Below, one piece after another: positions 4,105 to 12,477 of a stretch of 37,624 nt of DNA; position 1 is the first letter of the stretch; each line of letters begins with the position of its first letter. Source of the DNA: Flavobacteriaceae bacterium (GTDB taxonomy: Bacteria > Bacteroidota > Bacteroidia > Flavobacteriales > Weeksellaceae). The stretch lies in NCBI GenBank assembly GCA_018260565.1, contig JAGLAZ010000014.1, positions 1 to 37,624 of the forward strand, in the 5' to 3' direction. The translations under genes and the position numbers were made by a program. Below the pieces are notes generated by a model, which was not told the origin of the DNA, ran no database searches, and was given only the letters and a program-made list of their open reading frames with translations.

Positions 4105-5075
4105 TGCAATGGCGTACAGAGGTGGAGATATTACCTCCCTATCGTAAAGCTGGACTTCAAGATTCCTATTTTTTTTTAGGAAGTTGTTTTTCCGATGAAA
4201 TGGCACTCCGTTTTTCACAAAAAGAATTGCCCGTACTTTCTAATCCGTTTGGAACTATTTTCCATCCTTTAGCATTATTCGACATTTTAGAAGACATTGT
4301 TTCAAATAAAATATATACCGAAGAAGATTTGCTCTTATACAAGGGGAGATTATACAGTTTAAAACACTCTGGTAAATTTTCTACGGACGCAGAAAATGCC
4401 AAAGAATTCCTCAGCTTCTTAAATCAACAAATTTCTGCATGCCGAAGTTTTTTGGCTAAAGCCAATCATATATTCATCACTTTTGGTAGCGCATTTTATT
4501 ATGAATTTATACCACAAAATAAACTTGTGGCCAATTGTCATAAACTCCCACAGGTTTATTTCGATAAAAAACTCGCTTCATCAGAGGCAGTTTTTCAAAA
4601 ATTTCAAACTTTATTCCCAGACCTAAAAAAACTTTTACCATTCGGTACACAAATCTTTTTTAGTGTATCTCCTGTACGCCATACACGAGATGGGATGGCG
4701 GAAAATTCCCATAGTAAAGCCATCTGCATAGAAGCAGCACATCGTATGCGTGATGTTTCTACTATGTGTAGCTATCTACCTATTTTTGAAATTTTTTTAG
4801 ATGACCTTCGGGACTATAGATTTTATAAAGAAGATCTTATACATCCCAGCAGTACAGGTATCTCTTACGTAGAAGAAAAATTAAAAGCTGCACTTTTTAG
4901 TCCTGAGTTAGTAGAATTCAGTTCTAAAAACGAAAAAATTCATAAAATGATATCCCATATCCCGCTCCGTCCAGAGAGCGAAGAATATGCTAAACTACAG
5001 GTAAAAATAAAAGAAGAAATAAAAGCGCAACAGGCACTCGTGCCTTACCCTATTTTCCAGGAGTTTCATGATTGA
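4104..5075 (+). CDS. GSCFA domain-containing protein
   Basis: A 323-residue protein with the defining GSCF motif at residues 26-29 (context FFLGSCFSDEMALRF) and a late DLIHPSSTG block. Together these supply the Ser and Asp/His typical of SGNH-type esterases, to which the GSCFA family is related. The substrate is unknown; acyl ester or glycan deacylation is only a family-level guess. There is no signal peptide, so it is probably cytoplasmic. The start codon overlaps the preceding stop by one base, and the tatD gene starts within its last eight bases, so the three genes are translationally coupled. Confidence 0.88.
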   Translation: MQWRTEVEILPPYRKAGLQDSYFFLGSCFSDEMALRFSQKELPVLSNPFGTIFHPLALFDILEDIVSNKIYTEEDLLLYKGRLYSLKHSGKFSTDAENAKEFLSFLNQQISACRSFLAKANHIFITFGSAFYYEFIPQNKLVANCHKLPQVYFDKKLASSEAVFQKFQTLFPDLKKLLPFGTQIFFSVSPVRHTRDGMAENSHSKAICIEAAHRMRDVSTMCSYLPIFEIFLDDLRDYRFYKEDLIHPSSTGISYVEEKLKAALFSPELVEFSSKNEKIHKMISHIPLRPESEEYAKLQVKIKEEIKAQQALVPYPIFQEFHD

Positions 5076-5832
5076 CACACATACACATCTATACGCGGAA
5101 GAATTTGATATTGATAGAAATGATGTTATAGAACGTGCCTTTCTGGCTGGCGTGAATCATTTTTATTTACCTGCCATAGATTCTGAGACACATGGGAAAA
5201 TGCATCAGTTGGAATCTCAATACCCAGAAAAGATTCATGCAATGATGGGACTTCATCCCTGCTATGTAAAACCTGATACTTGGGAAGAAGAATTAAAGAT
5301 TGTCCAAAGATATATCGAAAGCCGTACTTATCCTGCTATAGGGGAAATTGGGATCGATTTATATTGGGACAAAAGTACGCTGGAGATACAGATTTTGGCA
5401 TTTGAAAAGCAAATTGATTGGGCACTAGCACTCAATAGACCTATCGTAATCCACTCTCGGGAAAGTTTTAAAGAAACTTTTGAAGTTTTAAATCAAAAAA
5501 AACACCCCAAATTGAGAGGCATATTTCACTGTTTTTCAGGGAATTTAGAACAAGCACAGGAGGCCTTAAATCTCGGTTTTTTGTTAGGAATTGGAGGAGT
5601 GGTCACCTTTAAAAACGGTAAAATAGATCAATTCTTAAATCAATTACCATTGGAAAAAATTGTTTTAGAAACCGATTCTCCTTATTTAGCACCAGTACCC
5701 TACCGTGGAAAACGAAATGAGAGTGCTTACTTAGAAATTATCGCTAATAAGCTATGTGATATTTACGGAAAAACTTTCGCTGAAATAGAAGAGATTACCA
5801 CCCAGAACGCTAAGAATTTGTTCTTAATCTAA
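5068..5832 (+). CDS. TatD family metal-dependent hydrolase (DNase)
   Basis: A 254-residue TIM-barrel amidohydrolase-type nuclease. Metal ligands are visible as the N-terminal IDTHTHLY, the EIGID strand near residue 92, IVIHSRES, IFHCFSG and ETDSPYLAPVP near the C-terminus. This is the complete TatD set. TatD proteins are 3'-5' exonucleases linked to DNA repair and turnover. The length is normal. It overlaps the GSCFA gene by eight bases. Its TAA stop overlaps the TAG stop of the convergent helicase gene. Confidence 0.93.
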   Translation: MIDTHTHLYAEEFDIDRNDVIERAFLAGVNHFYLPAIDSETHGKMHQLESQYPEKIHAMMGLHPCYVKPDTWEEELKIVQRYIESRTYPAIGEIGIDLYWDKSTLEIQILAFEKQIDWALALNRPIVIHSRESFKETFEVLNQKKHPKLRGIFHCFSGNLEQAQEALNLGFLLGIGGVVTFKNGKIDQFLNQLPLEKIVLETDSPYLAPVPYRGKRNESAYLEIIANKLCDIYGKTFAEIEEITTQNAKNLFLI

Positions 5833-7124
5833 TCCCATCTTTTTTTGGGGGCTCCGCCAGTTTTTCTGGAAGGTGCATTAGGTCTTGAAAAAGATTTTTT
5901 AGGGGATGCGTTGCTGGTTCCAAAATTATTTGTCCGTGGTTCAGATCGAAAGGGTTTATTATTGCTGTCTCGTTTTTCTATAACCAAACTATCTGTGTGA
6001 AAGGGGTGATCTCTCTCTACAGGAATTTTTTTACCAATAAGTTTTTCCGTGTTTTTAAGATTTACCAAATCTAATCCATCTACAAAACTAATGGAAGCTC
6101 CATCTGCGCCAGCTCTACCGGTACGCCCTATTCTATGTACATAAGTTTCAGCAACATCAGAAAGTTCAAAATTGACTACCCATTTAAGTTCTGATATATC
6201 GATTCCGCGCGCCGCGATGTCCGTAGCAACAAGGACTTTTGTTTTTCCACTTTTGAAATTGGCAAGTGCATTTTGTCTTGCATTTTGAGATTTATTACCA
6301 TGGATAGCCTCCGCAGCAACTCCACTCTGGACTAATCTCTTCACTATTTTATCCGCACCATGTTTTGTTCTTGCAAATACAAGAACTTCAGAATCCAATT
6401 GATTTTCAAGCAAATGAAGAAGAAGCGGAACCTTATTATCTTTATCTACCATAAACACTTTCTGCTGTATGGTATCTGCAGTGGAGGAAACTGGGGCAAC
6501 TTCCACGCGTACAGCCTCATTCATTAACTCCTTAGAAAGTGTAACGATTTCGGATGGCATTGTAGCGGAAAATAAAAGATTTTGTCTCTGAGAAGGCAAC
6601 ATTTTAATAACCTTCTTTACATCGTGAACGAATCCCATATCCAGCATTCTATCTGCCTCATCTAAAACAAAAATTTCAATATCCTTTAGGTTTATAATAC
6701 CTTGAGATGTAAAATCCAATAATCTTCCAGGAGTAGCTACTAAAATATCTGTACCTTTTCTAAGCTGACTTTCTTGGGATCCTTGTTTTACTCCGCCAAA
6801 GACAACTAAAGTTTTAATACCCGTATTTTTACCGTAATCTGTACAGTTTTCTTCTATTTGAATAGCCAATTCTCTGGTGGGAGTAAGGATTAGGCAACGG
6901 ATTTTTTTATTTCTTCCGTCCGCTTTTTTCCTGGATAGGATTTCGATTATAGGCAGTGTAAATGCGGCGGTTTTTCCAGTCCCTGTTTGGGCAGTGGCTA
7001 AGAGGTTTTTTCCTGTAAGTACCACAGGTATGGCTTTTTCTTGGATAGGTGTTGGCTGTGTGTATCCCAAAGCCGAAATATTATCTAAGATGCTCTGCTG
7101 AAGCGGTAGGTCTGTAAAATTCAA
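5829..7124 (-). CDS. DEAD-box ATP-dependent RNA helicase (RhlE-like)
   Basis: A 431-residue RNA helicase with the full motif set: Q-motif region (residues 3-28), AQTGTGKT (45-52), PTREL (82-86), DEAD (155-158), SAT (186-188) and HRIGRTGR in the second RecA domain. It ends in a 55-residue basic, Ser/Asn-rich tail finishing KKRWD. Such proteins unwind short RNA duplexes in ribosome assembly and mRNA decay, often under cold stress. The start codon is TTG (7122-7124). No in-frame ATG exists upstream before a stop, and the N-terminus NFTDLPLQ fits the family. -7 boxes lie at 7144-7151 and 7127-7134. Confidence 0.93.
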   Translation of the reverse strand: MNFTDLPLQQSILDNISALGYTQPTPIQEKAIPVVLTGKNLLATAQTGTGKTAAFTLPIIEILSRKKADGRNKKIRCLILTPTRELAIQIEENCTDYGKNTGIKTLVVFGGVKQGSQESQLRKGTDILVATPGRLLDFTSQGIINLKDIEIFVLDEADRMLDMGFVHDVKKVIKMLPSQRQNLLFSATMPSEIVTLSKELMNEAVRVEVAPVSSTADTIQQKVFMVDKDNKVPLLLHLLENQLDSEVLVFARTKHGADKIVKRLVQSGVAAEAIHGNKSQNARQNALANFKSGKTKVLVATDIAARGIDISELKWVVNFELSDVAETYVHRIGRTGRAGADGASISFVDGLDLVNLKNTEKLIGKKIPVERDHPFHTDSLVIEKRDSNNKPFRSEPRTNNFGTSNASPKKSFSRPNAPSRKTGGAPKKRWD

Positions 7125-10889: not shown

Positions 10890-11381
10890 ATGGATACGGC
10901 TCAAATTTGGAATATTGTCTCCTTAGTATTATTACTAGCAGGACTTGCAGGTACCGTATTACCCATTCTACCAGGAACTTTATTATCACTAGCAGGTTTA
11001 CTAATTTTTCAATATTTAGGTAGCGGTGGTATCTCGGTGTGGGTGATCATTTCTTTGGGGATATTTGCTGGTGCATCCATTCTTTTATCCTATACCCTCC
11101 CATTAAAACAAAGCACAAAGTATGGCGGATCCACTTTCGGAAAATGGGGCGGAATACTAGGGGCAATTTTATTTTTCCTTATTCCTGTATTACCATTTGG
11201 CTTGCTTTTCGGGATGTTTATTGGTATTTTTATTGGGGAATTTTTATACTATAAGCAAGATTTTGGAAAGGCTGTTCAGGCTTTAAAGGGTGCAGCTATA
11301 GGATTTTTGCTTAGCAGTTTGGTAAATTTATGCTTGGCAATCCTCATGATTATTGTAGTTTTGTTTAAATTAACCTTTTAA
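10890..11381 (+). CDS. DUF456 domain-containing membrane protein
   Basis: A 163-residue membrane protein that is almost entirely hydrophobic. About four or five membrane segments carry glycine-rich turns, including the GTVLPILPGTLLSLAGLLIF segment near the N-terminus and GGSTFGKWGGILGA mid-protein. Both are typical of DUF456 proteins, which have no defined function; the glycine zippers suggest a packed helical bundle. It is divergent from the mechanosensitive channel and is followed after 12 bases by the lipoprotein gene, so those two are probably co-transcribed. Confidence 0.88.
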   Translation: MDTAQIWNIVSLVLLLAGLAGTVLPILPGTLLSLAGLLIFQYLGSGGISVWVIISLGIFAGASILLSYTLPLKQSTKYGGSTFGKWGGILGAILFFLIPVLPFGLLFGMFIGIFIGEFLYYKQDFGKAVQALKGAAIGFLLSSLVNLCLAILMIIVVLFKLTF

Positions 11382-11393
11382 AAAAAGTTTTTA

Positions 11394-11846
11394 ATGAAAA
11401 AATTTTTATTTCTTCTTGCTTCTGCTAGCCTATTACTAGTATCTTCTCAGTCTTGTGTCGGGAGGAAAAATTATGGTCTAAATGATCATTTAAAGACTAA
11501 GTATGTGTATGGGAAAGATGAAGTTTTATTAAAAGAAGGCCAAAATAGATTTTTACCAGATAAAGAATTGAACTTTACCTTTACCAGAGTATTGGAAGAC
11601 TCCAGATGTGTTGGCCCACAAAATTGTCCCAATCCTGGTACAGCTGTGGTAGAGGTTACGCTTATAACTACTACCAGCAGGCCCCAAACCCTTCGTATCT
11701 CTCTTGATTCTCGAGAAAATAAACCTGCGGACGTTGCACATTTCGCCGATTTTGAGATTAGATTAAAAAAACTGGATCCTACAGGTGAGCCAGGAGTTAC
11801 TAAATACTATCGAGCCTTATTTTCTGTTATAAACACTACCAAATAA
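11394..11846 (+). CDS. Putative lipoprotein with a DSRC-type motif
   Basis: A 150-residue exported lipoprotein. The signal MKKFLFLLASASLLLVSSQSC ends in a lipobox-like sequence with Cys21 as the lipid site. The mature part includes EDSRCVGPQNCPNPG, which resembles the DSRCPxGxxCxWxG element in many small Bacteroidota lipoproteins, where the two Cys may pair. No enzymatic motif is seen and the function is unknown. Its last 11 bases overlap the convergent ung gene. The probable terminator of its operon lies about 110 bases further on, inside ung. Confidence 0.8.
   Translation: MKKFLFLLASASLLLVSSQSCVGRKNYGLNDHLKTKYVYGKDEVLLKEGQNRFLPDKELNFTFTRVLEDSRCVGPQNCPNPGTAVVEVTLITTTSRPQTLRISLDSRENKPADVAHFADFEIRLKKLDPTGEPGVTKYYRALFSVINTTK
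11765..11793 (-). terminator. Possible ung terminator inside the lipoprotein gene
   Basis: Reading the minus strand past the ung stop, CTGG pairs with CCAG and the inner CCT pairs with AGG, separated by small internal loops (11772-11793). Seven T's follow (11765-11771 on the plus strand are A's). The stem is modest, so confidence is limited. It lies about 43 bases beyond the ung stop, within lipoprotein coding sequence. Confidence 0.4.
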
Positions 11847-12477
11847 TTGGTTTTTTGCCAAATTGTACTAAATATTCATTGGTCTTACTAAAAGGTTTGC
11901 TACCGAAGAAACCTCTATGAGCCGATAAAGGTGAAGGATGTACGGCCTCAATTATAAGATGCTTATTAGAATTAATGAGCATCTTTTTTTGTTGTGCAAA
12001 ACTTCCCCACAAAATAAACACCACATGTTCCAGTTTTTCGGAAATCTGCTTAATAATAAAATCTGTAAAAGGATACCACCCGAGTTTACTATGGCTATTT
12101 GCCTGATGCGCCCGCACACTTAGGCTGGCATTAAGTAAAAGAACACCTTGCCTTGCCCACGGAGTAAGGTCTGGCGATGATTTATTAGTCCCAATATCTT
12201 CGCGCAATTCTTTAAAAATATTTTGTAAGGATCTTGGCGTTTGTATTCCATCACGTACTGAAAAGCTAAGCCCATGAGCCTGTCCTGGAACATGATATGG
12301 GTCTTGACCTAATATCACAACTTTAATATCTTCAAATGCAGTGCATTCTAAAAAATGAAAAATTTCCTTTCTTGGAGGAAAACATTCATAATTATTGTAT
12401 TCTTCTTTTACTCGCTGCCACAGCAATTCAAATTCTGGAGAATTTTTATACGGTTCTAATACTTTCGCCCACGTCAT
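11836..12477 (-). CDS. ung: Uracil-DNA glycosylase, family 1
   Basis: A 213-residue base-excision repair enzyme that removes uracil from DNA. The catalytic water-activating loop GQDPYH is at residues 57-62, followed by GQAHGLSFSV. The minor-groove intercalation loop HPSPLSAHRGFFG, with its catalytic His, is near the C-terminus, and LLLNASLSVR is the uracil-binding strand. This is the complete family 1 set at normal length. It is divergent from the MutS2-like gene (49-base gap) and convergent with the lipoprotein gene, whose 3' end it overlaps by 11 bases. Confidence 0.95.
   Translation of the reverse strand: MTWAKVLEPYKNSPEFELLWQRVKEEYNNYECFPPRKEIFHFLECTAFEDIKVVILGQDPYHVPGQAHGLSFSVRDGIQTPRSLQNIFKELREDIGTNKSSPDLTPWARQGVLLLNASLSVRAHQANSHSKLGWYPFTDFIIKQISEKLEHVVFILWGSFAQQKKMLINSNKHLIIEAVHPSPLSAHRGFFGSKPFSKTNEYLVQFGKKPIIW
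11956..11990 (+). terminator. Strong terminator of the DUF456-lipoprotein operon, inside ung
   Basis: Plus-strand bases 11956-11968 pair with 11973-11985 over 13 positions, with a single G-U pair, around a GAAT tetraloop. T's run from 11984 to 11990. The T-run on the plus strand fits termination of rightward transcription from the lipoprotein gene, which ends at 11846. The sequence is also codons of ung on the opposite strand. Confidence 0.75.

Follow-up and report, generated by a model that had tools for sequence, protein, structure and literature searches.

Two genes that converge on ung, encoding a DUF456 membrane protein and a putative lipoprotein, most probably share a one-way intrinsic terminator that would end their rightward transcript inside the ung coding sequence, at positions 11956-11990 of the window (the whole stretch of DNA analysed here, 37,624 nt, corresponding to contig C32 of a 1.87-Mb genome). 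In sequence terms, this predicted terminator is real, is shared across genera and is under constraint. The evidence is for a single antisense terminator acting in one direction rather than for the reciprocal pair, with one terminator embedded in each of the opposing genes, that an earlier sequence-only reading of the window had proposed.

The gene order around the site is mechanosensitive channel (-), DUF456 (+), putative lipoprotein (+), ung (-) and MutS2-like ATPase (+). Judged by gene content, the genome probably belongs to the Bacteroidota and perhaps to the Flavobacteriales. The putative lipoprotein gene (11394-11846, +), the final gene before the terminator, starts 12 nt downstream of the DUF456 gene (10890-11381, +; PF04306, E 1e-29), and the two probably form one transcription unit. 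The lipoprotein open reading frame has relatives in the family and no Pfam match, its putative identity being read from a signal peptide with a cysteine in the predicted product. The convergent ung gene (11836-12477, -; PF03167, E 7.5e-18) encodes uracil-DNA glycosylase, and its antisense strand carries the terminator. As had been noted before, the 3′ coding ends of the lipoprotein and ung genes overlap by 11 nt (11836-11846). Overlapping or abutting 3′ ends are common in the family, and an overlap of exactly 14 nt is found in 46 of the 93 relatives whose locus has the lipoprotein gene downstream of ung.

The hairpin in the window has 13 pairs and a 4-nt loop (11956-11985, +) and lies antisense to ung codons 165-174. 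It is continued by a run of seven T (11984-11990, +), two of them within the 3′ arm of the stem, which is the antisense of the Gln163-Lys164-Lys165 codons of ung. With a folding energy of -14.2 kcal/mol (z -4.97), the stem-loop is stable beyond chance, none of 200 dinucleotide shuffles being equally good, which bears out the initial proposal of a strong 13-bp hairpin with a T-run serving the rightward operon from within ung. It was picked up by the terminator scan of the window, which did not pick up the leftward candidate; an Rfam scan of the whole window at gathering thresholds gave no match. Only 3 of the 13 pairs are G-C. The genome is A+T-rich and so is the stem, which makes up in length for its low G+C content; we regard a G+C-rich stem as usual rather than defining for intrinsic terminators, and stems of the relatives are richer in G-C pairs, as in the case of GGCCGG stems. 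The U-tract directly follows the stem, and in each of the 92 genomes that carry the lipoprotein gene the 8 nt past the usual stem end contain 5 to 7 T.

For the comparison we selected 136 genomes, 120 from the family of the window (33 genera; ung is present in 317 of 320 family genomes) and 16 from other families of the order; the window genome is the sole one of its genus in this set. Relatives of the lipoprotein gene were found in 122 of 197 family genomes. The lipoprotein neighbour of ung was recognised by an HMM search, which may miss diverged copies. It should be noted that the genera g20, g26 and g9 are over-represented and that many loci were chosen by their ung or lipoprotein score. 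Three loci without ung (L114, L116 and L123) were dropped, mapping across the site failed for one genome (G182), so that the counts cover 135 of the 136 genomes, and another (G028), which has one codon more, was left out of the pair counts and strand energies. The thresholds of -6 and -8.5 were set by us and were not tuned on a benchmark, and the simple hairpin scorer and ViennaRNA disagree on bulged hairpins.

A hairpin at -6 or better is found in 59 of the 77 genomes in which a convergent lipoprotein gene lies within 60 nt of ung (a count that includes G011, whose weak hairpin sits elsewhere in the stretch), in 6 of 15 with the lipoprotein gene at a wider gap, in 3 of 27 family genomes without a lipoprotein neighbour, and in none of the 16 genomes of other families. 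The difference between genomes with a close neighbour and the rest of the family corresponds to a Fisher p of 6.6e-9 for genomes that are related by descent. An independent-pairs test of close convergent gene against hairpin, on a weak ung tree, yielded 4 supported pairs and a median p of 1, and parsimony placed 20 hairpin changes on the same poorly supported tree (54 of 115 inner branches open). We therefore do not claim an association between hairpin and neighbour beyond common descent, from which it is not separable here. The place of the hairpin is shared: rightward hits at -8.5 or better within 360 nt occur in 54 of the 77 close-pair genomes, all in one 20-nt bin, and none of the antisense hits at this threshold across the 77 ung genes lies outside it. 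Other rightward candidates are rare. In 91 genomes scanned over 330 nt past the lipoprotein stop codon, a hairpin at -6 or better matches the site in 65, two of which show another, weaker one elsewhere in ung; in 4 the sole hairpin is intergenic, and 22 have none. At its base the usual hairpin abuts the Gln-Lys-Lys antisense; the window has a longer stem, and there both the stem and Gln-Lys-Lys are displaced by at most one codon. When ViennaRNA served as a looser scorer, with bulges permitted, -6 or better was obtained at some point of the stretch for 14 of 80 distant named ung loci, though for none of them at the usual 22-nt register. Conversely, 18 of the 77 close-pair genomes have no hairpin at -6, and just one of these (G128) has an intergenic one; in these 18 genomes the hairpin is dispensable or is replaced by something not seen.

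Three genomes from three genera without the lipoprotein gene (G012, G021 and G023; loci L009, L190 and L017) have a different neighbour: a gene whose sequence reads as DUF456-like converges on ung, with gaps of 3, -12 and 3 nt, respectively. Among them only G012 has the hairpin, being one of the three neighbour-less positives.

Pairing is retained while the sequence changes. In a gap-free alignment (A1) of the 80 distinct sequences among 92, hairpin-positive or not, the eight usual stem pairs are formed in 83.0% of cells, as against 66.5% in shuffled alignments and 30.6-53.8% when the register is slid, and two-sided stem changes number 107, compared with 37.7 in the shuffles. By two of the five covariation measures the alignment is no better than the shuffles, namely the number of pairs with two-sided change (reached by 336 of 500) and of further pair types (reached by 187 of 500). 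RNAalifold applied to all registers together returned a consensus of only 4 pairs, because the registers differ. Key codons of the stem are nearly invariant, in contrast to codon use in the rest of the gene. In g20, alanine is written GCC in 33 of 34 cases (0.25 elsewhere in ung) and proline CCG in 31 of 32 (0.27); in g26, glutamate is GAG in 13 of 14 (0.18) and serine TCC in 11 of 11 (0.12); in g11, threonine is ACG in 7 of 7 (0.12). Loop codons vary, the loop leucine of g20 being written with five codons. Stem codons are more mixed in g9, where 9 of 22 genomes have the hairpin. The suggestion that each terminator constrains the codons of its partner thus stands for ung, and the check on synonymous conservation proposed along with it gave the expected outcome there; the part concerning the lipoprotein gene is not supported.

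Could the protein alone account for this pattern? Lys-Lys followed by peptides such as AELIDPA might tend to give a hairpin with a U-tract without any selection on the RNA. For most g20 genomes the peptide by itself yields an equally good hairpin in about 0.2 to 13% of synonymous recodings, and in up to 22%; moreover, g20 codons beside the stem are fixed as well (His CAT 34/34, Phe TTT 33/33). However, the codon choice of the stem departs strongly from that in the rest of ung. When the ung residues were held fixed and the codons redrawn from the gene, a proportion of only 0.001 of 1000 recodings matched the hairpin of the window, and the corresponding p was 0 to 0.008 for the nine hairpin-bearing g9 genomes. 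Over 11 genera with a close lipoprotein gene the combined p on genus medians was 6e-9, compared with 0.053 for 19 family genera without one and 0.86 for the 16 other-family genomes. Furthermore, an identical 21-residue peptide, FAQKKASLIDETKHFIIQSAH, is shared by g9 and g11, in which the pairing registers differ, and the window uses a third register, as expected if it is the signal, and not a given sequence, that is kept; distant genera also reach the hairpin with different residues. We hence consider a by-product of the protein sequence unlikely.

The constraint appears to reach the residues themselves. Those flanking the loop come in pairs, AE with PA in g20, EE with SS in g26 and in three of the four g5 genomes, AS with ET in g9, and AP with GT in G180. 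Three g20 genomes (G212, G239 and G293), and more weakly a fourth (G297), have changed stem residues and a lost or weakened hairpin, with no replacement hairpin at -6 within 330 nt in any of the four, so loss is tolerated. Whether the antisense terminator, kept across many genera, has steered the sequence of the ung enzyme, coupling these residue pairs through codon pairing while the stem was rebuilt in new registers beside the Gln-Lys-Lys U-tract, is a proposition on which we are evenly divided.

For an intrinsic terminator of the DUF456-lipoprotein transcript, the course of events would be as follows. Rightward polymerase would stop at the hairpin and U-tract inside ung; with the coding ends overlapping and no intergenic room left, the transcript would extend about 144 nt beyond the lipoprotein stop codon along the antisense of ung, the abutting gene ends having pushed the terminator into the neighbour. 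The U-tract would be supplied by the antisense of the ung Gln-Lys-Lys codons, and the stem would be written in the adjoining, more variable residues, where selection for termination would keep it through synonymous codon choice and through residue pairs changing together. Lysine occupies both aligned positions in 10 of the 16 other-family genomes. Since Lys-Lys is present outside the family, the U-tract was probably there first, for reasons of the protein, and the stem arose beside it later.

The palindrome folds on both strands, with g26 and g5 nearly symmetric in folding energy, and it might accordingly serve as a hairpin in the ung mRNA, affecting stability or translation, with the antisense fold being incidental. 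This is very unlikely given the direction of the signal. The U-tract lies only on the lipoprotein-direction side, antisense to ung, and terminator-like hits on the sense strand amount to 2 end positions in 77 ung genes. Of 92 genomes, 72 fold more strongly in the lipoprotein direction and 15 more weakly; the bias is also present without a lipoprotein neighbour (18 to 2 of 26), and it is larger with the lipoprotein gene than in the neighbour-less or other-family genomes (p 0.0017, uncorrected for descent). Counts of G-U against A-C over the eight outer stem pairs do not discriminate, being 159 to 30 where the lipoprotein gene is present and 42 to 12 where it is absent.

A leftward hairpin followed by seven T (11765-11793, -) is present inside the lipoprotein gene, where a terminator for ung had been suggested, and we rejected it as a chance fold: its energy is -5.6 kcal/mol (z -0.50), and 53 of 200 shuffles are at least as good. 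Among the 77 close-pair genomes, leftward hits at -8.5 or better occur in three, scattered and with no common place. With the leftward hairpin at chance level and such hits rare, the evidence points to a one-way arrangement, and of the approximately 200-nt overlap of the two transcripts that had been predicted only the rightward extension past the lipoprotein stop codon is supported, the left end having no support. The idea that each transcript would end within the partner gene, the two then pairing as a regulatory duplex, draws on the common overlap of 3′ ends and on the RNA antisense to the ung 3′ end that a rightward stop would yield, but it has very little probability, as the leftward half lacks support, ordinary termination suffices to explain why the rightward hairpin by itself is conserved, and our tests revealed no link between the functions of the lipoprotein and ung. 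The transcript of ung itself may possibly have a Rho-dependent end.

Bidirectional terminators, said to be pervasive by Ju et al. in 2019, resemble the one-way antisense terminator proposed here in serving a convergent pair; unlike them, the ung site has a U-tract on one strand rather than both and is located inside ung and not between the genes. With intrinsic (Rho-independent) terminators it shares a stem-loop that runs directly into a U-tract where a transcription unit would end, and it differs in lying wholly within the coding sequence of another gene, antisense to it, with a stem that is shared with codons and, in the window, is A-T rich. Compensatory stem changes similar to those described here have been reported for terminators of Bacillus cereus (PMC5381666). 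The 3′ ends mapped in Zymomonas include an excess of terminators that lie between convergent genes (PMC7566282), and site-specific termination is missing from most of the transcripts of convergent pairs examined in Rickettsia prowazekii (PMC3027695); in Bacillus, pyrimidine-rich antisense strands favour Rho (PMC13323073). In overlapping 3′ UTRs and in the excludon concept, as proposed here, a 3′ UTR enters the convergent gene because its terminator lies well beyond the stop codon (PMC7154746). The ung case differs in that the two genes are not known to oppose or repress each other, that no defined leftward end was found inside the partner, and that the terminator is conserved within the codons of the partner. 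TransTermHP, which also assigns scores to candidates within coding sequence and extends its scan to 500 nt beyond the stop codon (PMC1852404), covers sites of the ung type; the sections of that paper drawn upon here contain no case of codon constraint or of family-wide conservation of one embedded site. Overlapping 3′ UTRs, bidirectional terminators and the termination of convergent genes in general have been described before (PMC7154746, PMC5381666, PMC3027695, PMC1852404, PMC7566282). Among the matches listed from the open-licence literature, there was no family-conserved terminator inside ung, no family-wide terminator within an enzyme gene that constrains both codons and residues, and no study of how an embedded antisense terminator limits codon choice.

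Where convergent genes leave no space, a compact genome may place the stop signal of a transcript within the neighbouring coding sequence, and the codons and some residues of that neighbour would then be bound by the embedded signal. At the ung locus one can test to what extent protein sequence is shaped by non-coding signals of the other strand, and terminator annotation restricted to intergenic DNA misses such embedded sites. In 393 kb of the same genome, including the window, with genes called by ORF length only, antisense hairpins at -8.5 or better occur in 11 of 731 interior 250-nt segments, compared with 5 of 58 close-convergent transcripts, the ung site included, that have a hairpin inside the partner gene (Fisher p 0.004); 48 of the 58 have no terminator at -8.5.

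Besides the ung site, this sample contains four further embedded candidates. The genes for malate:quinone oxidoreductase (mqo) and a recO-like protein (L147:8332-10532; contig C16 88332-90532) overlap by 4 nt at their 3′ ends, and a hairpin of -14.9 lies antisense inside recO; of 25 relatives in which the gene was located, 3 (L253, L258 and L261) have a hairpin at a similar depth in recO. Hairpins of -12 to -13 lie in the partner gene at contig C16 217514-218955, C16 3688-5934 and L160:8773-10157, pairs listed as rhomboid protease/methyltransferase, M14 peptidase/glycine cleavage T protein and short ORF/ApbC/NUBPL-like ATPase. Within the window, a 7-pair hairpin with seven T (5502-5522, -) is located antisense inside the gene at 5068-5832, about 307 nt beyond the point where the convergent gene (5829-7124) ends. 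Finally, a 38-nt stretch elsewhere (L002:1501-1538; contig C16 30314-30351) is 87% identical to a coding part of ung that lies outside the hairpin (window positions about 12334-12370).
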